Assembly (NCBI GenBank): GCA_902777385.1 | Contig: CACYTP010000003.1 | Span: forward strand, 1-64,000 | Source of the DNA: an uncultured bacterium | GTDB lineage: Bacteria; Cyanobacteriota; Vampirovibrionia; Gastranaerophilales; Gastranaerophilaceae | DNA: 64,000 bases | Direction of reading: 5' to 3' | Part shown: positions 10,043 through 26,444 of the stretch, in pieces | How positions within the stretch are numbered: position 1 is the stretch's first letter | Layout: every line of letters begins with the position of its first letter | Program-made: the position numbers and the translations under genes | Notes under the pieces: generated by a model | Databases searched by the model: none | What the model was told of the DNA's origin: nothing | The model's input: the letters and a program-made list of their open reading frames with translations, nothing else

Positions 10043-10567
10043 ATGGAAATTATAAATTTAGTCACAAATGAAGTTAATCAAAATGATTACCACTTCAACA
10101 AATTTACTCAAAATAAAATAGGAATTTTATACATAGCTCCGATAAATATCGTACCATACGATTGTTTAGCTTGTGATGGTTACGTTCTAAAAATTATTGA
10201 TTATAAAAAGTTATATTCAGTTATAGGTACTTTTTTTAATCAAGGCACAGAAGAGTCTGACGAATTTAGAATACCTGATTACAACATCTCAAAAAGGTTT
10301 CTTCAACCGGGAAAAGATGTTGGAACAATATATAATGCAGGACTCCCCAATATTTGGGGAGAATTCAATCTCGGAGATTCCAATAATGTTTGGGGAAGTG
10401 GTGCCTTTTATGCAACGGGAAGTGGTAATTGGAGGAACGGAGGAGGATCTTCTTCCTCTGAAAGATATATCGGATTCAATGCATCTCGTTGTTCAGGAAT
10501 TTATGGATCATCCTCAACAGTTCAACCACCCTCACAAATTGTACATTACTGTATCAAATATAAATAA
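10043..10567 (+). CDS. Tail-collar domain protein, paralogue 1 of 4
   Basis: 174 residues. The N-terminal 95 residues hold a phage tail-collar domain (IGILYIAPINIVPYDCLACD, EFRIPDYNISKRFLQPG). The centre is a Gly/Ser/Asn-rich stretch unique to this copy, and the C-terminus ends GSSSTVQPPSQIVHYCIKYK, nearly shared with the other three. Upstream there is only a weak RBS. Likely role: adhesive fibre tip or receptor-binding subunit, with the centre as the exposed variable part. Confidence 0.72.
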   Translation: MEIINLVTNEVNQNDYHFNKFTQNKIGILYIAPINIVPYDCLACDGYVLKIIDYKKLYSVIGTFFNQGTEESDEFRIPDYNISKRFLQPGKDVGTIYNAGLPNIWGEFNLGDSNNVWGSGAFYATGSGNWRNGGGSSSSERYIGFNASRCSGIYGSSSTVQPPSQIVHYCIKYK

Positions 10568-10572
10568 GAAAA

Positions 10573-11073
10573 ATGGAAATTTTAAATCTAATATCTAATC
10601 AATTAAATCAAAATGGTTATTCAAAAAATATGCAAACCAAAGGAAAAATAGGAGCTATTTATATATTCCCTACCTATTATACCCCTGATGATTGTTTTGC
10701 TTGTGAAGGCTATTCTCTATTAATTGTAGATTATCAAGATCTGTACAACGTTGTTGGAACAAAATTTAATAAAACTGACGATCCTGAAGGAACTTTTAGA
10801 ATTCCAGATTACAACTTAACAAAAAGATTTTTACAACCGGGAACAGAAGTTGGAACTCAAATTGAAGCAGGATTACCCGATCATAATCATACAGTTACAG
10901 CTTTTTGGTGGGATGGTTCAGGTGTTGCTGAAGAAGGAAGAGGAAATCCAGATTATGGACACCACCGAGTTCTTACAACAAATAATGCTTCAGCAAGTAA
11001 TGGAATATATGGAGGATCAACAACAGTTCAACCTCCATCGCAGATTGTACATCTTTGCATTAAATACAAGTAG
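10573..11073 (+). CDS. Tail-collar domain protein, paralogue 2 of 4
   Basis: 166 residues with the same frame: CFACEGYSLLIVDYQDLYNV, FRIPDYNLTKRFLQPG, and an end YGGSTTVQPPSQIVHLCIKYK-like. This copy diverges most in the collar half and has the shortest centre, carrying a His-rich GLPDHNHTV segment that in other fibres binds metal at trimer interfaces. It starts five bases after copy 1 with almost no RBS (TAAGAAAAATGG), so it may rely on reinitiation. Confidence 0.72.
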   Translation: MEILNLISNQLNQNGYSKNMQTKGKIGAIYIFPTYYTPDDCFACEGYSLLIVDYQDLYNVVGTKFNKTDDPEGTFRIPDYNLTKRFLQPGTEVGTQIEAGLPDHNHTVTAFWWDGSGVAEEGRGNPDYGHHRVLTTNNASASNGIYGGSTTVQPPSQIVHLCIKYK

Positions 11074-11080
11074 GTAAATA

Positions 11081-11611
11081 ATGAAAGTTAAAAGTATAAA
11101 AACAAATACTCTAAATCAGAATAATTACAATACTAATAAATTCACCCCAGATCAGGTTGGTTCTCTTGTTGTTTATCCTGTCGATTATACACACGAAAAC
11201 ACTTTATCCTGTGACGGATATGTCCTTTTAATTGACGATTACCCTTTGCTTTATTCTGTAATCGGCAAAAAATTTAATACAGGTTCAGAAACTGAAACCG
11301 AATTTAGAATACCTGATTACAACATAACAGGAAATTTTTTACAACCCGGCACTAATGTGGGAAATAAGATTAATGCAGGTCTCCCAAACATTTCAGGATA
11401 TTTTACTGGTGGAAATAATTATTCAGGTTGCATTGCCGGAGGAGCATTTACATATCGAGGTGATACAGGATCTGTTAATCCCGGAAACGGTCGTTCTTAT
11501 GGAGATAAACAATATAACTTTAATGCATCGAATTCAAATTCTTTATATGGCAAATCTTCAACAGTACAACCACCATCTCAGATTGTGCATGTATGCATCA
11601 GATATAAGTAG
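11081..11611 (+). CDS. Tail-collar domain protein, paralogue 3 of 4
   Basis: 176 residues. The collar half is closest to copy 4 (NTLNQNNYNTNKFTPDQVGS, YPVDYTHENTLSCDGYVLLI). The centre is a Gly/Asn-rich stretch (GGNNYSGCIAGGAFTYRGD) unrelated to the others, before the conserved C-terminus. The short junction TAGGTAAATAATG is repeated in front of copy 4, as expected from recent tandem duplication. Confidence 0.72.
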   Translation: MKVKSIKTNTLNQNNYNTNKFTPDQVGSLVVYPVDYTHENTLSCDGYVLLIDDYPLLYSVIGKKFNTGSETETEFRIPDYNITGNFLQPGTNVGNKINAGLPNISGYFTGGNNYSGCIAGGAFTYRGDTGSVNPGNGRSYGDKQYNFNASNSNSLYGKSSTVQPPSQIVHVCIRYK

Positions 11612-11618
11612 GTAAATA

Positions 11619-12155
11619 ATGGAAATTAAAAATATAAAAACAAATACCCTAAACCAAAATAGCTACACTATAAATAGACTAACTCCCGATCAGATTGGAT
11701 CTCTTATCATCTACCCAGTTAGTTATACTCATGAAAACACTTTACCCTGTGATGGCTATGTACTTTTAATAGAAGATTATCAATTACTTTATTCAGTAAT
11801 TGGCAAGCAATTTAATACAGGATCAGAACAAGAAAATGAATTTAGAATACCTGACTATAATATTTCCGGTCGTTTTCTTCAACCTAGTTCTAGTCCTGTA
11901 ACTAAAAAAGAGGCTGGTTTACCTAATATTACAGGTCAATGGCACAACGTTGGAGTTGAGCCGGGAGCAGCAGGAGTTAGTGGTGCAATTGTAAATCACA
12001 ATTGGGGAGGAAGTTTTTACTACCACGCAAGCGGTCGTGGTGGCAACTTGGGAGGTTTTGACCTTAATGCATCAAGAAGTTCAGGAGTTTATGGTGCATC
12101 TTCAACCGTTCAACCGCCATCACAGGGCGTTCATGTATGTATTCGTTATAAATAA
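11619..12155 (+). CDS. Tail-collar domain protein, paralogue 4 of 4
   Basis: 178 residues. N-terminal collar domain nearly matches copy 3 (YPVSYTHENTLPCDGYVLLI). The centre (GQWHNVGVEPGAAGVSGAIV, HNWGGSFYYHASGRGG) is again unique. The end is VYGASSTVQPPSQGVHVCIRYK-like. It is the last of the array and is followed by the endolysin gene after an AAGGAG site. Confidence 0.72.
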   Translation: MEIKNIKTNTLNQNSYTINRLTPDQIGSLIIYPVSYTHENTLPCDGYVLLIEDYQLLYSVIGKQFNTGSEQENEFRIPDYNISGRFLQPSSSPVTKKEAGLPNITGQWHNVGVEPGAAGVSGAIVNHNWGGSFYYHASGRGGNLGGFDLNASRSSGVYGASSTVQPPSQGVHVCIRYK

Positions 12156-13627: not shown

Positions 13628-14290
13628 ATGGGCGGAAGAGGTTCCGGCGGTGGTAAAGGCGGTGGCGGAGGCGGTGCCGCTAAAAAAATACCAACAGGTG
13701 AAGGCATCACCGATAAAAACGAACTAATCAATTTATATAATAGTATTTCAGGCAATTCCAATTTATCTGTTGAACAGCGTGTAAAAGCGATGCACTATAT
13801 TGAAGAGAGGATTAAGGAATTAGATGCTAAAAAACAGGCAGACCTAAAACAAAAACGACTTGATGCACTTGCCAAAGCACGTGCAAAGCGTGCCGAAAAT
13901 AAAAAGAATGGCATAAAACCTGAAAAGAAAGAAAAAGATCCAAAAAGAACAAAAGCTAAAATGTCTATGGACAGCACAGTTTCAGACCTTAAATATAATT
14001 TAAGGCGTGGTGTCGATTCAGACGGATATATTTCAAGTTCTGACTTTAGAGTTGAAGACTATGGTGATTCCGTAAGTGTTCAAGTTAGATATTTAGGTAA
14101 ATGGAAAAATCCATCACACGCACGCTACGAGGAAGATTACGATTGGCAAGTTTTGCATAAATCAAGCGGAAAACAGATCGATAAGGTTGTAAAGAAAATG
14201 GCAAGACAGTCAGGTCGTAAAATTACTTGGAGTGCAAGTGAAAAGAATTGGATTGATATAGATATACCAAAAATGCGAGGTGATAAATAA
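13628..14290 (+). CDS. Unknown protein with glycine-rich MGGRGSGGG N-terminus (copy 1)
   Basis: 220 residues. The first 20 are almost only glycine (MGGRGSGGGKGGGGGGAAKK). A lysine-rich helix follows (residues 55-120), and the C-terminal third looks folded (DFRVEDYGDSVSVQVRYLGK, WQVLHKSSGKQID). The same N-terminus starts the next gene, so it may be a shared tag for packaging or localisation. I recognise the N-terminal pattern from phage late regions but not a function. Confidence 0.55.
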   Translation: MGGRGSGGGKGGGGGGAAKKIPTGEGITDKNELINLYNSISGNSNLSVEQRVKAMHYIEERIKELDAKKQADLKQKRLDALAKARAKRAENKKNGIKPEKKEKDPKRTKAKMSMDSTVSDLKYNLRRGVDSDGYISSSDFRVEDYGDSVSVQVRYLGKWKNPSHARYEEDYDWQVLHKSSGKQIDKVVKKMARQSGRKITWSASEKNWIDIDIPKMRGDK

Positions 14291-14895
14291 TGGGTGGTCG
14301 TGGTTCAGGAGGCGGCAGATCCGGCGGAGGTGGTGGTGCATCATCCCAACAGGATCACGAAGTAAAACTCCGCAGTCTTAATGAAATATATCAGGAAAAA
14401 TATTCCCAAATGACAGATTCAGAGTTGAATCGGGCATTGACTAATGCTAAAAATCAAATGAATAAAGAACAAGCAAAAGTCTTGCACGAACAACAGAAAC
14501 TTCAAAAAATGGTGGATGAATTTAAAAAAATGAAAGACACCGATCCGGGAGTTGATGAAAAATGGAATGCCATCGATAAACAAACTGGCGTTTTGAATGA
14601 TGCACGTTCACGATTAGATATCAGGTCACAGGCATATTATTTAGGTATTAATGAAAAGCACAATGTTAGAGGGAAATATACCGCAAACGACATTAAAAAT
14701 ATGTCTAACGGTCAATTAAATTCTTTCTATAATAATTCATACAAAGAAAGTTCCAAAGCTCGCAGACGTATTGAAAACACATCAAATCCCAAAACGAGAG
14801 CCAAATATCAAAAAATATACGATACTCAAAACGATTATTTCAATAAAGCAACTGCCGAAAAAAATATCCGGGGACTTGATGGAAAAGGTTGGTAA
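14290..14895 (+). CDS. Unknown protein with glycine-rich MGGRGSGGG N-terminus (copy 2)
   Basis: 201 residues starting MGGRGSGGGRSGGGGGASSQ, then predominantly helical and coiled (KQVLHEQ-like heptads near residues 60-90, YNNSYKESSKARRRIEN). Beyond the glycine-rich start it is unlike copy 1. ATG overlaps the previous stop by one base. It is followed by the first copy of the repeated leader element. Confidence 0.55.
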   Translation: MGGRGSGGGRSGGGGGASSQQDHEVKLRSLNEIYQEKYSQMTDSELNRALTNAKNQMNKEQAKVLHEQQKLQKMVDEFKKMKDTDPGVDEKWNAIDKQTGVLNDARSRLDIRSQAYYLGINEKHNVRGKYTANDIKNMSNGQLNSFYNNSYKESSKARRRIENTSNPKTRAKYQKIYDTQNDYFNKATAEKNIRGLDGKGW

Positions 14896-17313: not shown

Positions 17314-17390
17314 ATTTAATACCTCCTTAATCTCAATAATAATGTAAAAAAAATCCCAATGCAATTAACATTGAGATATAGAAGTGATGT

Positions 17391-17699
17391 TTAACTTGTT
17401 TTATTAAGCCTTTTCTGCTTTTTTAAGTGATTAGAGATAATTCTATAAATTTGTCTTTGAGATAAATCACATTCAATTGCCAATCGGTTAATTGTGAATC
17501 TTGAGCCGTCATATTCATTGATTACATACGTTTCTTTTAATTTTTTGAGTGAGTTTTTTGGAATATAAATACTTAATCCGGCTAAAAGGAATATCAACAT
17601 CAGTGCATGTTTTATCCCTGCCTTTTCAGCAATGTATCTTAAATCTTCATTTGGCATATCTTTATGTGATACTTTTTCCATCCATGGCTCGAATTGCAT
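17391..17699 (-). CDS. Mor/C-type transcription activator
   Basis: 102 residues with the Mor family layout: dimerisation part LRYIAEKAGIKHALMLIFLL, then LSIYIPKNSLKK, then a helix-turn-helix FTINRLAIECDLSQRQIYRI. In Mu, Mor switches on the middle promoter that leads to late transcription, so this protein probably activates a phage promoter. Its start codon lies 14 bases after a hammerhead ribozyme (17714-17778), with GAGGAG between as RBS. Confidence 0.82.
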   Translation of the reverse strand: MQFEPWMEKVSHKDMPNEDLRYIAEKAGIKHALMLIFLLAGLSIYIPKNSLKKLKETYVINEYDGSRFTINRLAIECDLSQRQIYRIISNHLKKQKRLNKTS

Positions 17700-17713: not shown

Positions 17714-17778
17714 GGTCTCATCAGTTGGAGCACTACTCCAAGACGAGCAGATTGCACTGTTATCCGCTCGTTTCGACC
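17714..17778 (-). ncRNA. Type II hammerhead self-cleaving ribozyme, upstream of Mor-like gene
   Basis: Read on the minus strand: GGTC, GAA, stem III ACGAGC/GCTCGT, then C at the cleavage site (GTC), stem I TTGGAG-TAGTG-CTCCAA, the core CTGATGA, then GACC closing a 4-bp stem II with GGTC. Every invariant core base is present, and the open helix is stem II, hence type II. Predicted cut between 17742 and 17741. It starts five bases after the upstream stop codon and ends 14 bases before the next start. Stems differ from the copy at 18108 by compensatory changes. Confidence 0.93.
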
Positions 17779-17783
17779 TGATA

Positions 17784-18089
17784 TTAATATTTGTTTTTAG
17801 GAATAAATTTTTCTTCTGGAGAATCTGATTTGTGCTCTAATAAGTGTAATAAAAGAGAAATTTCATCTTTGACAGAGTTTGCACATTCATAACTTACCAA
17901 TAATTCAACAATTTCATCCCAGTCACTTGATGTTTCACTATAATCAAGTAATCCAATTCCTTCAGTTGTACTAATTTTATGGTTTTTAATAAATAATTCT
18001 GCTATCGCAATTTTTGAGCAATAGATATCTTCATCAGCCTGATCTAATCGTTCTTTTAGTAGTTTCCTAAAATCATCATTTTTTTTCAT
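17784..18089 (-). CDS. Unknown small early phage protein between two ribozymes
   Basis: 101 residues, acidic and helical (KLLKERLDQADEDIYCSKIA, SSDWDEIVELLVSYECANSV). No family recognised. It is bracketed by hammerhead ribozymes at 18108-18167 (upstream) and 17714-17778 (downstream), so cleavage at both would release it as a monocistronic RNA. Confidence 0.6.
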   Translation of the reverse strand: MKKNDDFRKLLKERLDQADEDIYCSKIAIAELFIKNHKISTTEGIGLLDYSETSSDWDEIVELLVSYECANSVKDEISLLLHLLEHKSDSPEEKFIPKNKY

Positions 18090-18107: not shown

Positions 18108-18167
18108 GGTCTCATCAGTTAACGCCTTACGTTAAGACGGTCAGCACGCAAGCCGACCGTTTCGACC
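18108..18167 (-). ncRNA. Type II hammerhead self-cleaving ribozyme, second copy
   Basis: Minus strand: GGTC, GAA, stem III ACGGTC/GACCGT (extendable by GGC/GCT), C at the cleavage site, stem I TTAACG-TAAGG-CGTTAA, core CTGATGA, GACC. All catalytic core positions match the consensus; predicted cut between 18136 and 18135. Compared with the copy at 17714, stem I and stem III sequences differ but pair perfectly in both. It starts five bases after the stop of 18173-18514 and ends 18 bases before the ATG at 18089. Confidence 0.93.
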
Positions 18168-18172
18168 TGTCA

Positions 18173-18514
18173 TTACATGGAATGTGGAGGGGTAAACATA
18201 CATTCAAAGTCGTTTTCTAATTTTGAAAGAATAGCCATTTGACCTTCAATAACCTTACAATCAACTTCTCTCTCGTATTTTCCACTCCAATTATCCTTTT
18301 CCAAGGCTACGTCGGCATATCTTAATTTTGCTTCCCTTAAATCTTCTTCAAGAATAAGCATTTGGTTTTTAATTAACCCAATAACCGCACATTCCGGCAT
18401 TTCGTTCATTTTTTTAGGTGTAGCTGTCATTTCAGAATCCATTGATTCTTTCATTGAATTTTCCATTGTGTCTTGCATTGGCATAGACATTTCCATTGTT
18501 TTTTCTTCTTGCAT
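18173..18514 (-). CDS. Unknown small early phage protein, Met-rich N-terminus
   Basis: 113 residues. The first 40 are unusually rich in Met, Glu and Ser (MEMSMPMQDTMENSMKESMD); the rest is helical (IKNQMLILEEDLREAKLRYA, VIEGQMAILSKLENDFECMF) and may form a coiled coil. No family recognised. AAGGAG precedes the start. A hammerhead ribozyme follows its stop. Confidence 0.55.
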   Translation of the reverse strand: MQEEKTMEMSMPMQDTMENSMKESMDSEMTATPKKMNEMPECAVIGLIKNQMLILEEDLREAKLRYADVALEKDNWSGKYEREVDCKVIEGQMAILSKLENDFECMFTPPHSM

Positions 18515-18540: not shown

Positions 18541-18987
18541 CTAGAGAGCGGCCGCACTCTTTTCTAATTTTTGTTTAATTGCTTTTATAGCTTGGATTAC
18601 TTTAATTGCCTTAGTTTTAGTAAGGAAATTAATGTCATCTACTTTAAATTTTGTTTTTAAGAATTTTCTTAGAGATTTATTAGCGAATTCGTTATTATCG
18701 AAATAACAAATCTCTCTCCATAAACCCTTTATCATTCTTAATTGTGGTGGGGTTGCCATTTTACTGTCTCGATTCAAGTCCTCATAAGGTTTAGGCATTC
18801 TTTTCCATAGATTCCGTTCTTCAGCTCTTGTTTCTAAAATATCAAGCATTACAGATGCTTCTGTAAAAGTTAAATCTTTAGAAGAACAAACTCCAAAAGA
18901 CATCAGCATTTCACGATAAAGATCATCGTCTAAACCGAGTAATGACTTTAAAATATGAATTCTTTTAATCTGTGAAGGTGTAGCCAT
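18541..18987 (-). CDS. GemA/gp16-like protein (DUF1018)
   Basis: 148 residues. TPSQIKRIHILKSLLGLDDD near the start, then LYREMLMSFGVCSSKDLTFT and ATPPQLRMIKGLWREIC, match the phage GemA/gp16 family (DUF1018). In Mu, GemA affects host DNA gyrase and gene expression. The gene lies between the B-like gene and Mor, as in Mu. Its start overlaps the end of the 58-residue gene upstream. Confidence 0.8.
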   Translation of the reverse strand: MATPSQIKRIHILKSLLGLDDDLYREMLMSFGVCSSKDLTFTEASVMLDILETRAEERNLWKRMPKPYEDLNRDSKMATPPQLRMIKGLWREICYFDNNEFANKSLRKFLKTKFKVDDINFLTKTKAIKVIQAIKAIKQKLEKSAAAL

Positions 18988-19153: not shown

Positions 19154-20032
19154 CTATGCCATCAGCATTTTTGAAGTTTGTTTAATCACAGTAGAATCGA
19201 CCTTTTCAATGCCATTAAATTTGGCAATGCTAATACTGTGAGTAATTAAATGTTCTAACTTTCTTGTATTTCCATCAGAATAGAAAAGAAAAGTTTCTGC
19301 TAAATCAGGATCTAATCCTGCCGCATTTAAAATTTTTGTTACATCTTGAATGAGCAATCTATCAAGTAATTTGTGATATTTCACTCTTGAATAAAGTTGA
19401 TCATATTGATTGTTATAACCTCGCAAATTCTCAAATAAAACATTTCTTCCTACTAGCAGAACTCCAATCCCTGTTTTATCGTGAATTCTGCGTGTAATTT
19501 CTAACGCTCTATATGGCAAATTTTCTGCCTCATCTACTATTAATAATCTGCCTGAATTATTTAATTTATTTACTACTTCATTCATTAAGTCATAAGCACA
19601 GCCTTTACCTGAAAGACCGAGTCTTTTATGAATTTCAAGAAGTAAAGATTTGGCTGTATATCCTGAATCGCTTTCTATTAAAATTGCATCTAAAAAGTTT
19701 TTCGTATATTCTTTTACAGCCACAGTTTTACCGAGTCCTGCTCTGCCGGCACAAACACCAATCTTGCCTTTCGTATGACAAAGTCTGCCGATTTCTGAAA
19801 TATACCTGTTAATTGAAATATCCACAAATGGAATTTCATCATTATTACGTTCTTTTTCTCTTTGAATAAAATTGTTTATTCTATCTGTAATACGGGAATT
19901 GTCACCTTTATAAGTGCCGTTAATCCACATACTTACGGTTGATTTTGCTACACCAATGGCAGTGGCTACAAAATTCACAGATAATCCTTTTGATTCCATT
20001 AAGGTTTTTAAATCATTTCTAATATCCGCCAT
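19154..20032 (-). CDS. MuB-like transposition ATPase with N-terminal HTH
   Basis: 292 residues. N-terminal helix-turn-helix (LSVNFVATAIGVAKSTVSMW) near residues 17-37, Walker A GRAGLGKT near 98, Walker B RLLIVDEAE near 165, and an AAA+ C-terminal lid with SDGNTRKLEHLI. This is the MuB layout: DNA-binding ATPase that chooses targets and stimulates the transposase. It overlaps the end of the transposase gene by 14 bases with AAGGAG inside that gene. Confidence 0.88.
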   Translation of the reverse strand: MADIRNDLKTLMESKGLSVNFVATAIGVAKSTVSMWINGTYKGDNSRITDRINNFIQREKERNNDEIPFVDISINRYISEIGRLCHTKGKIGVCAGRAGLGKTVAVKEYTKNFLDAILIESDSGYTAKSLLLEIHKRLGLSGKGCAYDLMNEVVNKLNNSGRLLIVDEAENLPYRALEITRRIHDKTGIGVLLVGRNVLFENLRGYNNQYDQLYSRVKYHKLLDRLLIQDVTKILNAAGLDPDLAETFLFYSDGNTRKLEHLITHSISIAKFNGIEKVDSTVIKQTSKMLMA

Positions 20033-21989
20033 TAGCGACTCCTTTCAATTCTTCATCAAGAATTAAATCTGTTTCAAATAAATACAAATCCTCTTCTTTT
20101 TGTGTCTCATCAGGCATAAACATTGTTAAATCGTTCTTGCCAAATGCTTCCATATCTTTGTTTTTTCGTATTGCTTTATCCATTGGGGTGTTAGCAATAA
20201 TAGTAACTTTTGGTTTTGATTCCTTCTCTTTTTTGGCATATGCCAATTTATAGTTATTGCATTGCTCTTCAATAGGAATCATTTCTAAATTATCCAAGTA
20301 AGCCTTTGTCAGTTTTAAACTATGCTTTTTAATAGCCAAAGCATCTTTAAATTCTTCTTTTGAGACTTCATTTGCGTGTAGTGCGGCAACTGCTTTTACT
20401 GCTGTGCACTTTCCTAAAAATTCATCATTATCTAATCTAAATACCCACGCTTCTTTGTAATTTTCAGGATCTCTGCGGAGATAAACTTTAACAGACATCT
20501 GTGAAATCATCCAATCTGCCCAATAAGTAATTTCTAATTGGCGATCCTTAATACCATTTCTAGCAATAGTAAAATTGCGTGAAGTTCTTGTGCAGAAAAG
20601 TTTTAATGCCTCACGAGTTGGTTTAATGATTTCATTAAACTCATTATCAAAAAGCTCATCAGGGCTTAATCCATTGTGATTTTTACCATCAGATGGTTTT
20701 TTATTTAAAACATTAATAATATAGTCATTAAATACTGTTTTAAATCTTTCAAAATCATAAATTTTATTTGTCTTTATTTCTTGAGCAAGACGTTCAGGTC
20801 TTTCTACAACATTTCCACCTCTATAACCATATACGTGTTTAGACAGGATTTCTTTTAATTTTAGAAAATCTCTTTCTATTGGTTTTGTTTGAGCGTTATA
20901 TGGCAAAGCAAAATGCACATTTACATTTAATTCATCAAGCATTGATGAAGTTTTATTTGTATCATTTTGAATTTTAATTTTTTCTATTTTTCTGCCGCCG
21001 GCAAAATCTTTGCATCGATAATCCTTACCGTTATCAATAATTACATCTTCAGGTAAACCAAACTTTTCTGCCGCATAATAAAATGCCTGAAATATTCTGT
21101 CGGAATTAGGACTTCCACATTGTAAAATCCAACCTAACCATTTCCCTGATTTGTAATCTCTCCAAGCAGTAACCCAAGGAAATACTACATTCCCTTCTGG
21201 ATCAAATACCGCCACATCAATTTGTGCGTGGTCTGATACCCAAACTTTTCCGCAGGATATTGTCGAATAATCTCTTTCAATATAGTTTTCAAATTTTCTT
21301 TTATAAGCCGATGCACCATATCTTGCAAGATATATAGCTTGAACAGGCATTTCTTTTTCTAATCTTCTTTTAAATGCCATGTGACTTGGGAATGTGCATT
21401 TATCAATAGTTGAATCGATTGATAAAGCGTGTCCCAATGTTTGGTCTCGACAAGATCTTAACGAAGGAGCACCCTCAACTAAATATAAATTCTTAAAATA
21501 ATCAAAATCGGCTTGTTTTACGGTCGAACGATTCAAACCATTTGAACCGTAGTTTGCTAATAAACCGTTTATACCGTATTTATTATATCTTTTTCTCATT
21601 TTTATAATAGATGAATAAGATGTTTGAAAATTAGTATGGGTGAGGTTAAAATTGGCAACAAAATCCCTCAATGCCGAACCTTTCAGCTTTAATGATGCTT
21701 TTATAATAGGCAAATATTTATCCGCTTGAGCTTTTGCCCAATTTGGAACTTCTGAATATTTCTTATCAGAAAATTTGCTAGTAAATCCTTTAATAAAAAG
21801 TTCGGGTAATGAATCCTTATTGATAAAATAATTACTCTTATTGCCGTTTTTAATAATTTTGTAATTTAGTTGATTTAAATAACATTTATTTTTTAATGTT
21901 TTATAACTGATATTTAATAATTCACACGCAGTTTTAGCATCAACCCAAGATGCTTGTTGGCTGTTCATGTTCAGCTCTGTCATAATCAT
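20019..21989 (-). CDS. MuA-like DDE transposase (phage)
   Basis: 656 residues. N-terminal DNA-binding part (WVDAKTACELLNISYKTLKN), a second helical domain, then the RNase H-like core with DDE residues in VWVSDHAQIDV, EDVIIDNGKDY and NAQTKPIERDFLKLKE. A beta-barrel and a charged C-terminus that would contact the ATPase follow. It cuts and joins phage ends during integration and replication. The start at 21989 has AAAGG upstream and overlaps the HTH gene by 50 bases. Confidence 0.9.
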   Translation of the reverse strand: MIMTELNMNSQQASWVDAKTACELLNISYKTLKNKCYLNQLNYKIIKNGNKSNYFINKDSLPELFIKGFTSKFSDKKYSEVPNWAKAQADKYLPIIKASLKLKGSALRDFVANFNLTHTNFQTSYSSIIKMRKRYNKYGINGLLANYGSNGLNRSTVKQADFDYFKNLYLVEGAPSLRSCRDQTLGHALSIDSTIDKCTFPSHMAFKRRLEKEMPVQAIYLARYGASAYKRKFENYIERDYSTISCGKVWVSDHAQIDVAVFDPEGNVVFPWVTAWRDYKSGKWLGWILQCGSPNSDRIFQAFYYAAEKFGLPEDVIIDNGKDYRCKDFAGGRKIEKIKIQNDTNKTSSMLDELNVNVHFALPYNAQTKPIERDFLKLKEILSKHVYGYRGGNVVERPERLAQEIKTNKIYDFERFKTVFNDYIINVLNKKPSDGKNHNGLSPDELFDNEFNEIIKPTREALKLFCTRTSRNFTIARNGIKDRQLEITYWADWMISQMSVKVYLRRDPENYKEAWVFRLDNDEFLGKCTAVKAVAALHANEVSKEEFKDALAIKKHSLKLTKAYLDNLEMIPIEEQCNNYKLAYAKKEKESKPKVTIIANTPMDKAIRKNKDMEAFGKNDLTMFMPDETQKEEDLYLFETDLILDEELKGVANGGY

Positions 21990-22531: not shown

Positions 22532-23224
22532 TTAACAAATGTTAAGCAAATTTTGTTTTAAATCAGTATATAAATACTCGTATTCTCTGTCTTTTCGCCA
22601 TATATATTCCGATAATCTATGAAACATATATGATTCGTTAACATTGTGACTTTCTACTCTTCTTAAAAAACTATATGTGATTGAGAGTTTTCTTATGTCT
22701 GATTTTGAATAATTTTTCTCTTTTTTACCTCTCAAAATTTTATCAGTTACAAAAACGTAGTTATTATAAACATAAAAAAATGCATTCTTATCATAAAACT
22801 GACGGTATCGTGCAATTTGTGGCTTTTCAAAAAAATGTTTTTTCAATTCTTTTAATTGCCTTTCATACAACATTCTCCTAAAAATCAAATAGTAATTACA
22901 AATGCAACTTTTATTAAGCCTTAATAATATTGCAACTTTTTGAGGTGGAATTTCTAAACAAAAACTTTTCATAATAATTTCTTTTTCGTAATCTTCCCTA
23001 AATTCAAACATTGTTTCGATTCTTTTGGTTTCAATTCTTTTTTGTTTAAGATTTTTAGCTGAAAGGTACACAACTAAATCTCCATTTATAGAAATCGCAC
23101 CTTCATTTTTTAATTCTGATATGCATTTTTTTATTATATTAGTATCAATTTCTAGAATTGAAACTAATTCGTTAAGCGTAGTTTTTTTGAGCCGGCGGCA
23201 TAATTTTAATACTTGGTCTTTCAT
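22532..23224 (-). CDS. Winged-helix DNA-binding protein, third gene of transposition module
   Basis: 230 residues. An N-terminal winged helix (KKTTLNELVSILEIDTNIIK, ISELKNEGAISINGDLVVYL), then a second HTH-like region (LEIPPQKVAILLRLNKSCIC) and a basic aromatic C-terminus. It starts 53 bases inside the ATPase gene, so the three genes form one unit. Its position matches accessory targeting factors (TniQ/TnsD), but I see no zinc motifs and no DDE, so the role is open. Confidence 0.55.
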   Translation of the reverse strand: MKDQVLKLCRRLKKTTLNELVSILEIDTNIIKKCISELKNEGAISINGDLVVYLSAKNLKQKRIETKRIETMFEFREDYEKEIIMKSFCLEIPPQKVAILLRLNKSCICNYYLIFRRMLYERQLKELKKHFFEKPQIARYRQFYDKNAFFYVYNNYVFVTDKILRGKKEKNYSKSDIRKLSITYSFLRRVESHNVNESYMFHRLSEYIWRKDREYEYLYTDLKQNLLNIC

Positions 23225-23906
23225 TGAACCTTCCTTTCAATATTTCTTCTGTTATTACATTAAATTTATTAGTTCTTGCTTGTTTTTCCAACTGTTCCAA
23301 AGTCTGAACAATTTTTCTGAACTGGTTGGTGCGTGTTGCAAGATATGTTATTGCATCTTCACTAAATTCAAGATCTGTTATTTGATTAAGAATATCTCTT
23401 AAATCTTCTTCGTTATAATGTTCAAACCTTAACTTTTTAAATAATCTATCGTCAAAATGTTTTAATCTTGATATTTTTTTATCAACGAATCCCATTCCTG
23501 AAAGTATAATTGGCGAACCTGTGTTATCTTGAATATCTCTTAAAATTTCAATGGCATTTTTATAACCAAATAAATAATCAACTTCATCAACTATAATAAT
23601 TTTAGGATTAAATCTTAATTGCTTTAAAATTGCATTAAAATTATCTTGCATACTAAAATAAGGATTTATTTCCAACTCCTCCATAATCAGTTTTAATAAA
23701 CCATTTTGAGTAATATCATTATTTGCTCTAATATAAATGGCATCATTTTTCGTAGCCCACCATAATAATGTTTTAGTTTTACCTATTCCATGGTCACCGT
23801 AAACAAGTGCTAGTTTTGGAATATTTGGCGGAAGTTTTTTTAAATCTTCCATTAGTCCGACAAACTTTTTGACGTTTTTTGTTTTAACAAATACATTTGC
23901 TTTCAT
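23172..23906 (-). CDS. AAA+ transposition ATPase (MuB/TniB/TnsC type)
   Basis: 244 residues: Walker A YGDHGIGKTKTLLWW near residue 40, Walker B PKIIIVDEVDYLFG near 112, sensor-type SPIILSGMGFVDKK, and an arginine-rich lid. No N-terminal HTH, unlike the phage ATPase at 19154, so the two are distinct. It starts three bases after the transposase stop. It should recruit target DNA for the 664-residue transposase. Confidence 0.85.
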   Translation of the reverse strand: MKANVFVKTKNVKKFVGLMEDLKKLPPNIPKLALVYGDHGIGKTKTLLWWATKNDAIYIRANNDITQNGLLKLIMEELEINPYFSMQDNFNAILKQLRFNPKIIIVDEVDYLFGYKNAIEILRDIQDNTGSPIILSGMGFVDKKISRLKHFDDRLFKKLRFEHYNEEDLRDILNQITDLEFSEDAITYLATRTNQFRKIVQTLEQLEKQARTNKFNVITEEILKGRFNERPSIKIMPPAQKNYA

Positions 23907-23909
23907 CTG

Positions 23910-25904
23910 CTACCCTCCATATAAGTTGTAGTATTCATCACTTCTAATATAATTTGCGAGCCATTTCCTATCTTCAGGATTGGTGCATCCGTTATTTATT
24001 AACCACTCGTATTTTTCAAAATCAGAATCAAACATAGGTTTATTCATCTGTTTTTCACGAGGGGTTAATTTATGTTCACGAACAGTTTTTTCAGGTTCAA
24101 ATTGTTCAATTTCAAGTGCCGGTTCAGGAGCAACATCTAAAACCTGAAGTTCCTCTTTTGGGAATGTTTTCTTTATTCGTTTTACTAATCTATTCTTAAT
24201 TTTTTGTTGCTTTTCATATTGATACTTGTATTCTTCCATATCTTTTACTGTTCCAAGAACACGAGCCATAGGGTGTACTTTTTGAACTCTGTGAGCAACA
24301 CATAAAAACTCCCCTTTTGTGGAATATACGTTAACTTTTGATAAATCAAACAGACTGTATCTAATATTTACTTTATCCCGGATTCCAAGAATTGCCTCGC
24401 TTCTGTAATGCATATTTAAGAATGTAATTCCATGTTTATTAATTGTTCTGCCTTCGGTTTTCATCATCAAATCATCGAGTCTTTGAACATCAATATTTTG
24501 TTTTTGAACGCTATTTAAACACTCTTTGATTGTTTTATTTCTATCGTTCGGGCAGGGTTGATTATTATGAAATTCAATCCAACTATTAATATATTTACTT
24601 GCTTCCGAAACTGTCGGAATATGATTATTAGTTAATTTTTGATGCCATTGTGCGTGGAGTTTTTCACCTCTTTTTAACCACGCCGGCTTATCTTCAATTG
24701 AAGTTCCAATGTAGCTCGGCATTCCTTTTTCAAGTTCTTCTTGAAATTCCCGGAAAAATCTTTCTATTACTTTGGCTCTTGCATTGTATGGTTTTGCAAA
24801 AACTGAATGTATATTTAAGTTTGCATAAACTCCGTTAAACAAATCTTCTTCAAAGTCTACATTTTGGAAGAATCGAGATTTGAAAGCTTTTCCGTTATCC
24901 TGATAGACAACTTTCGGAATTAAACCTAAATTTATAATTGCATTTCTTAAAGCTGATGCAATACATTGAGTGCTTTCAGTCATCATAATTTCATATCCGA
25001 CAAGTGCTGTTGATTTCCAATCTAAAAAACCGACAAGAGTTGCTCTTGTCGGTCTGCCGGTGAATGGATTTATAACTTGAAAGTTTAGAACGTGTCCGTC
25101 TGCGACTAATACATCCCCAACTTCAATTTTGGAAATATCTCTTTCAATATATGGTTCAACTTTATCGTGGTATGCTTTCATACCTTCTCGTCTCAAAACC
25201 CACTCTGCGTAGTTGTTTTTTCTGAAGTTCTCTGCATATCTTTTAAATGATAAATCGCAGGGAAGAGATTCATAACCTCGTTTTTTTAATATCTCTTTTG
25301 TTAATTTAATTGCTTTCCCATAATTATATTTGCTTGGGTGAAGTAATAAGGTTAATAATATTTGCCGCATCTCATCATTCAGAATTGAATTATACTCTCC
25401 CTGTTTTGTATATTTATAATTTGGTTGTAAACATTCCGCACATTCATGCTTTTCATATTTCCTTAACCAACGGTGGAGAGTTCCAATAGAAATTGCTCCA
25501 ATAAATCGATATGCTTTTGGAAGATATAACCCTGAGTTATATAAATCCAAAAAATCAGAATCAGCTTGTTTTTTAGTCGTATATTTTTTTCTGAATTTAA
25601 TTAATGCCAACACAATATTTATTCTAAAATTCGCAGTAATTTTTGCATTATCTGATACAAACTGCTGTGGCTGATAATTTAATGGAACAAGTTCCGTAGA
25701 TTTATTTTCATGCTTTCTTAATTTATCCTGAAGTTCAGGTTCTAAACTTGAAAACAATATTTCATAACTCGTGCCGCCATTAACCTGAACCTCTCTTGAG
25801 ATATATTTGCTTTCGGTTTTATTTAATTCCAAACGAAGTGATCGGGTACTTTTTAAACCCTTGGCTTCTGCTACATCTTTTATATTTATATATATATTAT
25901 TCAT
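23910..25904 (-). CDS. Mu-type DDE transposase (second module)
   Basis: 664 residues. Helical DNA-binding N-terminus, integrase core with DDE residues in GDVLVADGHVLNF, PKVVYQDNGKAF and ARAKVIERFFREFQEE, then a Mu-type C-terminal barrel. The last 40 residues (PMFDSDFEKYEWLINNG, EDRKWLANYIRSDEYYNLYG) are typical of MuA-family ends that bind the ATPase. GAGGTAAT precedes the ATG. Similarity to the phage transposase at 20019 seems limited to the fold. Confidence 0.88.
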   Translation of the reverse strand: MNNIYINIKDVAEAKGLKSTRSLRLELNKTESKYISREVQVNGGTSYEILFSSLEPELQDKLRKHENKSTELVPLNYQPQQFVSDNAKITANFRINIVLALIKFRKKYTTKKQADSDFLDLYNSGLYLPKAYRFIGAISIGTLHRWLRKYEKHECAECLQPNYKYTKQGEYNSILNDEMRQILLTLLLHPSKYNYGKAIKLTKEILKKRGYESLPCDLSFKRYAENFRKNNYAEWVLRREGMKAYHDKVEPYIERDISKIEVGDVLVADGHVLNFQVINPFTGRPTRATLVGFLDWKSTALVGYEIMMTESTQCIASALRNAIINLGLIPKVVYQDNGKAFKSRFFQNVDFEEDLFNGVYANLNIHSVFAKPYNARAKVIERFFREFQEELEKGMPSYIGTSIEDKPAWLKRGEKLHAQWHQKLTNNHIPTVSEASKYINSWIEFHNNQPCPNDRNKTIKECLNSVQKQNIDVQRLDDLMMKTEGRTINKHGITFLNMHYRSEAILGIRDKVNIRYSLFDLSKVNVYSTKGEFLCVAHRVQKVHPMARVLGTVKDMEEYKYQYEKQQKIKNRLVKRIKKTFPKEELQVLDVAPEPALEIEQFEPEKTVREHKLTPREKQMNKPMFDSDFEKYEWLINNGCTNPEDRKWLANYIRSDEYYNLYGG

Positions 25905-26369: not shown

Positions 26370-26444
26370 TGGAGCGGGAGACGAGGCTCGAACTCGCGAC
26401 ATCCTCCTTGGCAAGGAGGCATTCTACCACTGAATTACCCCCGC
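26370..26444 (-). tRNA. tRNA-Gly (GCC)
   Basis: Minus-strand GCGGGGG pairs with CTCCCGC (one G-U), D arm AATTCAGTGGTAGAATG, anticodon stem CTCCTTGCCAAGGAG with GCC in the loop, T arm GCGAGTTCGAGCCTCGT, discriminator T and an encoded CCA at 26370-26372. 75 bases. It is the first chromosomal gene after the prophage. Confidence 0.95.

Follow-up and report, generated by a model that had tools for sequence, protein, structure and literature searches.

Early operon of the prophage

The window, by which we mean the whole 64,000-nucleotide (64-kb) stretch of Gastranaerophilaceae DNA analyzed here, carries on its minus strand an early operon with the order MuA-MuB-GemA-Y-HH1-X-HH2-Mor, as annotated with Pfam and PHROGs. 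MuA, MuB, GemA and Mor occur together in this one operon, which identifies the element as a Mu-like phage. HH1 and HH2 are two type II hammerheads in the gaps between its last genes. The features are as follows.

20019..21989, minus strand: MuA-like DDE transposase (Pfam, PHROGs)
19154..20032, minus strand: MuB-like AAA ATPase (Pfam, PHROGs)
18541..18987, minus strand: GemA (PF06252)
18173..18514, minus strand: ORF Y, 113 aa, conserved, without a family, just upstream of HH1
18108..18167, minus strand: HH1, type II hammerhead ribozyme (sequence, fold, independent model R1)
17784..18089, minus strand: ORF X, 101 aa, without a family, between HH1 and HH2
17714..17778, minus strand: HH2, second type II hammerhead (sequence, fold, model R1)
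17391..17699, minus strand: Mor-like transcription activator (Pfam PF08765), directly downstream of HH2
17353..17377, minus strand: terminator-like stem-loop and T tract just past mor (consensus match only)

Judging from its sequence, the terminator-like site probably marks the end of the early transcript. From Y to mor, neither a promoter-like nor a terminator-like site was called on the minus strand. The gemA-mor order is the same as in phage Mu, where the two genes overlap and close the early operon, whereas in the window prophage Y and the ribozymes intervene between them. The first-pass annotation of this DNA had reported a transposable phage with a type II hammerhead in its early operon. 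The calls for MuA, MuB, GemA and Mor and the conservation of the site in related prophages bear out this description, except that the operon holds two hammerheads flanking the 101-aa gene and not one. As for a possible origin of X by duplication of Y, a profile comparison gave only 17% probability over 34 columns, which is suggestive, and we do not claim it.

Ahead of MuA, the minus strand carries a second transposition module (22532-25904) encoding a TnsB-like protein of 664 aa, a TniB-like protein of 244 aa and a family-less protein of 230 aa, and a tRNA-Gly gene lies near this module (26373-26444). Homologues of the TnsB-like gene are found in 10 of 12 relatives (L361-L372), most of them with a tRNA gene (Met, Ser or Ala) a few hundred bases beyond. 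Possibly, this is a Mu-like phage with a tRNA-adjacent insertion module. On the plus strand, four tandem paralogous proteins of ~170 aa (10043-12155) look like tail-collar or fibre-tip proteins in which the C-terminus is conserved and the middle varies, and two neighbouring proteins (13628-14895) both start with MGGRGSGGG and have glycine-rich N-termini.

Anatomy of the two hammerheads

The elements of HH1, in the order in which they are transcribed, are listed below.

18167-18164/18111-18108, minus strand: stem II, GGTC/GACC, 4 bp
18163-18161, minus strand: GAA
18160-18152/18145-18137, minus strand: stem III, ACGGTCGGC/GCTGACCGT, 9 bp including one G.U
between ACGGTCGGC and GCTGACCGT, minus strand: loop III, ttgcgt
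18136, minus strand: C17
18135-18130/18124-18119, minus strand: stem I, TTAACG/CGTTAA, 6 bp, with loop UAAGG at 18129-18125
18118-18112, minus strand: CUGAUGA
18135..18136, minus strand: predicted cleavage site, from hammerhead chemistry and the position of the core

Read from 18167 to 18108, the minus strand is GGTC GAA ACGGTCGGC ttgcgt GCTGACCGT C TTAACG taagg CGTTAA CTGATGA GACC. The whole invariant core (CTGATGA, GAA, A15.1-U16.1 and a cleavable C17) is present on this strand at the coordinates given in the first-pass annotation, and stems I and II were found where it had placed them. Stem III is also present, with a length of 9 bp including the G.U pair and not the 6 bp originally given. 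Stems I and III are closed by loops and stem II is the open helix, as had been proposed, which is the type II permutation. The position of the core agrees with the proposed cleavage between 18136 and 18135, and the cut would leave a 2',3'-cyclic phosphate on C17 (18136) and a 5'-OH on 18135. The spacing was likewise described correctly: HH1 starts 5 bases past the stop of the ORF at 18173-18514 and ends 18 ahead of the ATG at 18089. The minimum free energy (MFE) structure of the isolated HH1 68-mer is the exact hammerhead fold (-25.0 kcal/mol, z = -3.1).

HH2 sits in the next intergenic gap, one gene downstream of HH1, and its core is complete.

17778-17775/17717-17714, minus strand: stem II, GGTC/GACC
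17774-17772, minus strand: GAA
17771-17762/17752-17743, minus strand: stem III, ACGAGCGGAT/ATCTGCTCGT, with loop aacagtgca
17742, minus strand: C17
17741-17736/17730-17725, minus strand: stem I, TTGGAG/CTCCAA, with loop UAGUG
17724-17718, minus strand: CUGAUGA
17741..17742, minus strand: predicted cleavage site, placed as in HH1

Its order is GGTC GAA ACGAGCGGAT aacagtgca ATCTGCTCGT C TTGGAG tagtg CTCCAA CTGATGA GACC. The core is identical in HH1 and HH2 while the letters of the stems differ, so compensatory changes are already seen between the two copies. In a rival predicted fold of HH2, the 5' flank UAUCAG pairs with the ribozyme's own core CUGAUG (window 17784-17714, minus strand), and in a long context the MFE structure differs from the active fold. 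Because of this competing fold HH2 may cut only partially, and the predicted structures make its efficiency less sure than that of HH1.

Detection with covariance models

A strict pattern scan gave two matches in the 64-kb window, whereas 60 Mb simulated with the trinucleotide make-up of the window gave none. A degenerate pattern scan of viral contigs retrieved at least 120 stretches, and among the matches listed 117 fold as complete type II hammerheads. From 26 of these phage hammerheads, none of them from the window's host group, we built a covariance model (R1). In the 64-kb window R1 matched HH1 with 61.6 bits (E = 1.9e-16) and HH2 with 58.6 bits (E = 1.5e-15), and no third match was found up to E=10. 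Neither phage Mu (first 14 kb) nor BalMu-1 nor phiRTG5 was matched by R1, and searches of the phage collection with the HH1 region (blastn) and with GemA (tblastn) gave no match.

The first-pass annotation had also proposed a search with the Rfam hammerhead models as a check and had named the absence of a hit as a refutation, an outcome that is formally obtained with Rfam. These models matched neither HH1 nor HH2, no gathering match was obtained in the window, and RF02276 (Hammerhead_II, gathering threshold 37 bits) returned nothing with E<=10 in the 501 nt around HH1, which R1 does match. Only weak matches, all elsewhere than HH1 and HH2, were obtained in an Rfam search of the genome itself. 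In RF02276, stem II has 2 bp and is followed by a tail. It reaches its threshold on only 2 of ~12 hammerheads in one array (L066), and gave no threshold match in ten further hammerhead-rich loci. Because RF02276 misses most phage hammerheads of the same geometry, we take its failure on HH1 and HH2 as a limit of the model. Rfam-based annotation misses this form of hammerhead and such elements are therefore probably under-counted.

Conservation and covariation in related prophages

Contigs that share the hammerhead sequence are mostly named Candidatus Gastranaerophilales / Melainabacteria, and judged by these relatives the host belongs to Candidatus Gastranaerophilales. MuA relatives are encoded in 104 of the 191 genomes of the bacterial family, and R1 matches occur in 25 of the 191 (14 of 41 genera). 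Nearly all of the R1-matched ribozymes in the family stand at the same place, GemA-Y-HHR-(X-HHR)-Mor, where HHR is a hammerhead. Related prophages carry either one ribozyme (GemA-Y-HHR-Mor) or two (GemA-Y-HHR-X-HHR-Mor), and the X position holds diverged, helical-looking proteins of ~90-100 aa or is empty. As far as we could check, the Y-HHR-(X-HHR)-Mor synteny in Gastranaerophilales prophages has no prior description.

Across 15 distinct related prophage copies, 99.3% of the helix cells are paired and 9 pairs are changed on both sides. None of 500 shuffles of these copies reached the observed level of covariation, and sliding the partners destroyed the signal. The wider phage set has 13 doubly changed pairs, and in it stem II, which is invariant within the prophage family, shows compensatory changes. 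The unpaired core of the related prophages is fixed except at N7 (U/C) and H17 (C/A), which are the positions that hammerheads allow to vary. Covarying stems together with a fixed core indicate that both the helices and the hammerhead core are under selection as RNA, and a mere hairpin would not give such a pattern. At the phage loci, the three-stem geometry was seen at 174 places, 169 of them with a perfect core, and G17 is absent from all 169 (viral loci were fetched with core patterns, prophage loci without).

Some prophages depart from this pattern at the orthologous site. One has a hammerhead with an extra stem-loop inserted in loop III (L172:3760-3879), another on its minus strand has a hammerhead with a ~100-nt insert in stem I (L185), and a third has a damaged hammerhead (L166:3637-3700). 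L174 has an unrelated perfect hairpin (AGTGCAGGGAAAATTCCCTGCACT) and no hammerhead at this site, and in L176 nothing comparable to a hammerhead was found there. Given these absences, damage and insertions, the ribozyme is not essential to this type of Mu-like phage.

A hammerhead and its gene as a unit

Comparison of two related prophages, L160 and L162, shows an extra stretch of 353 bp in one of them that corresponds exactly to a single HHR+X unit, with the boundary at the hammerhead. Their flanks are 98-99% identical (623/638 upstream and 330/333 downstream). The sequence of X diverges widely between phages, while the hammerhead sequence is common to both positions. Together, the presence-absence difference and the diversity of X suggest that the ribozyme travels with the small gene or supplies homology for its exchange. 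In related prophages the HHR+gene pair is thus gained and lost as a unit.

A similar arrangement is seen more widely. Among 255 distinct phage hammerheads with enough flanking sequence, 93% lie between a stop and a start on the same strand, compared with 31% for random places and 36% for the opposite strand. They begin a median of 3 nt past the stop and end a median of 25 nt ahead of the start, and they precede genes of many kinds. In loci with multiple hammerheads, all copies are on one strand in 46 out of 46 cases, with a median spacing between neighbours of 415 nt, about one small gene. One-strand arrays of 5 to ~11 type II hammerheads, about one per small gene, occur in L066:2224-7239, L042:9152-12752, L017 and L074.

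Geometry of the form

The core and the stem-II-open permutation of HH1 and HH2 are the same as in the type II hammerheads of PMC3088659. The consensus of that study includes a pseudoknot between loop I and the 3' tail, whereas HH1, HH2 and most sampled relatives give no pseudoknot signal. Instead, stem I of HH1, HH2 and most sampled relatives is 6 bp long and closed by a 5-nt loop that begins with U, and their stem II has 4 bp and is flanked by A, in contrast to the 2-bp stem II of RF02276. Among the matches listed, which include 172 distinct phage examples, stem I and its loop span 17 nt (6 bp and a 5-nt loop) in 148, the first base of loop I is U in 99%, and an A precedes stem II in 98% and follows it in 80%. 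Stem II has 4 bp in nearly all 172 of the matches listed, a regularity that is partly imposed by the search pattern.

By eye, no 4-bp pseudoknot match was found between the HH1 loop UAAGG and its tail AAAUAUAGG, or between the HH2 loop UAGUG and its tail AUAAGAGG. Among the matches listed, 138 relatives of the same geometry gave 11 runs of at least 4 bp between loop I and tail, compared with 9.0 when the tails were re-paired, which is no clear excess. A contact of the loop U with the flanking A is a plausible substitute for the pseudoknot. Pseudoknot-type elements do occur in a Mu-like phage from human faeces (L356, MT835795), in which two type II hammerheads in tandem (241-305 and 895-961) lie directly upstream of the MuA-like gene.

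Many phage hammerheads have a tail complementary to their own core. In the first scan, made without selection for the tail, RTCAG directly follows stem II in 31 of the 172 matches listed (~18%), compared with ~1.3 in shuffled tails. Over two scans, NTCAG after stem II, complementary to C3-U4-G5-A6-N7, was present in 100 of 276 distinct hammerheads among the matches listed; the second viral scan selected for the tail, with a pattern that left both N7 and the tail base free. In these 100 cases the combinations of N7 and tail base were T7/A (59), C7/G (40) and T7/G (1, a wobble), with no others (Fisher p 3e-27), and both versions are present together in two contigs. Examples are L015:10410-10463, L061, L074, L102, L288 and L322. 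The tail-core hairpin forms in the predicted downstream product in 99 out of 100 cases. Because this hairpin cannot coexist with the active core, the tail may possibly act as a post-cleavage latch or an off-switch, as modeled from predicted folds. HH1 and HH2 have no such tail. Our literature search, a weak test, found no description of it.

Relation to known ribozymes

Perreault et al. 2011 (PMC3088659) described natural type II hammerheads in bacteria and prophages, where a single gene often has several of them around it. In that study, tandem arrays from Clostridium scindens, Azorhizobium and Agrobacterium were shown to cleave, and the hammerheads were proposed to process long phage transcripts into mRNAs of gene length. 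Hammerhead and twister ribozymes are enriched near Mu-like phage genes and near each other, for a reason given as unknown in the introduction of PMC10085705 (its refs 25 and 26). The first-pass annotation had stated that no role is known for a hammerhead in a transposable phage early operon; the association with Mu-like phage genes had already been published. Relative to the association as described there, the present case gives the exact place, which is the Y-mor interval that closes the early operon. Prokaryotic hammerheads also flank small non-conserved ORFs (review PMC6155905). Those cases and the window pair alike have two hammerheads around a small gene, and here the cassette is present or absent in near-identical prophages. 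To the extent that we could check, the novelty lies in the exact placement, in stems that covary within a single prophage family, in the cassette that distinguishes near-identical prophages, and in the failure of Rfam to see this form.

Proposed role

We think it probable that both HH1 and HH2 are true type II hammerheads, which cleave in cis and thereby mature the early mRNA of the Mu-like prophage. Each would fold from its own 60-65 nt as RNA polymerase passes, with stem II closing last, and would cut once, co-transcriptionally, after C17 (18136 in HH1 and 17742 in HH2). The early polycistron would be divided into a MuA...GemA-Y piece, a 394-nt X message (18135-17742) with ORF X as its only ORF, and a mor message. 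In the upstream RNA, the newly made 3' terminus would be folded into the stem III hairpin. The downstream RNA would open with a 5'-OH and the stem I hairpin, followed immediately past the ribozyme by the ribosome-binding region and the start codon. These hairpins form in the predicted folds of the cleavage products. Because stem II is the open helix, stems III and I would stay as hairpins and both new RNA ends would be shielded, and because the downstream RNA has no 5' phosphate, decay that depends on a 5'-monophosphate should attack it poorly. Decay and translation of the mor and X messages would then likely be uncoupled from those of the long transposase message. We infer catalysis, an effect on stability and a benefit to the timing or dose of Mor.

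Of the three circular permutations, only type II would by its topology cap both new ends with a closed hairpin; in types I and III one new end would be single-stranded. The protection of both ends, together with the 5'-OH, is offered as a simple reason for the use of type II by phages. The glmS ribozyme is, as proposed for HH1 and HH2, cis-cleaving in a bacterial 5' leader, although its fold is different. It needs a metabolite and its cleavage marks the mRNA for decay, unlike what we propose for HH1 and HH2.

The best surviving alternative, which we nevertheless regard as unlikely, is that the ribozymes are regulated switches in which a ligand, a protein or the ribosome turns cleavage on or off and thereby times the production of Mor. 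The location just ahead of the middle activator gene, the competing fold at HH2 and the core-complementary tail of many phage relatives are all consistent with regulation. However, no additional conserved domain is joined to HH1 or HH2, the window copies are tail-less, and the element precedes genes of many kinds.

A slightly weaker candidate is that the hammerheads are kept mainly as recombination homology for swapping small genes in the early operon, with catalysis incidental or selfish. Such a function would fit the exact one-unit difference between L160 and L162 and an X that varies widely across phages while the positions share hammerhead sequence, but DNA homology alone needs neither an invariant unpaired core nor covarying stems, and single copies persist without the cassette.

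We consider it improbable that the paired ribozymes excise the X message and that its ends are joined into a circular RNA of ~394 nt, as in retrozymes or viroids. The two hammerheads are on the same strand with predicted cleavage sites 394 nt apart, and hammerheads accompany circular RNAs in viroids and retrozymes (PMC6155905). Nevertheless, no RtcB ligase gene was found in the host genome (99.95% complete), making rejoining or circularization by RtcB unlikely; many relatives have a single hammerhead, the excised RNA is protein-coding with its own start region, and a search in PMC3088659 for products of tandem phage hammerheads that were circular or spliced found none.

Finally, strong stems III and the unrelated strong hairpin at the same place in L174 could suggest merely protective or terminating hairpins whose likeness to hammerheads is irrelevant, but the unpaired core nucleotides are invariant save N7 and H17, no T tract follows and no terminator was called at the ribozyme sites, so this reading is very improbable.

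Implications

Extending the proposed mRNA maturation beyond this prophage, we suggest tentatively, with less conviction than for the window pair itself, that the type II hammerhead of tailed phages is a standard mRNA-maturation module, a unit gained or lost whole that frees hairpin-ended messages. A large subset would refold via the core-complementary tail, and the window pair would be a tail-less form placed at the early-to-middle switch, upstream of mor. For the window, maturation predicts RNAs that begin with a 5'-OH at 18135 and at 17741, as well as a stable, hairpin-capped mor RNA, which can be looked for by RNA sequencing.

Since at least 2011 it has been asked what hammerheads do in phages. 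The two ribozymes at a constant site ahead of the middle-gene activator, and the near-identical prophages differing by one HHR+gene unit, provide natural experiments. If phages use hammerheads as self-acting mRNA processing sites, these would be a protein-free counterpart of operon processing by RNase III or RNase E.
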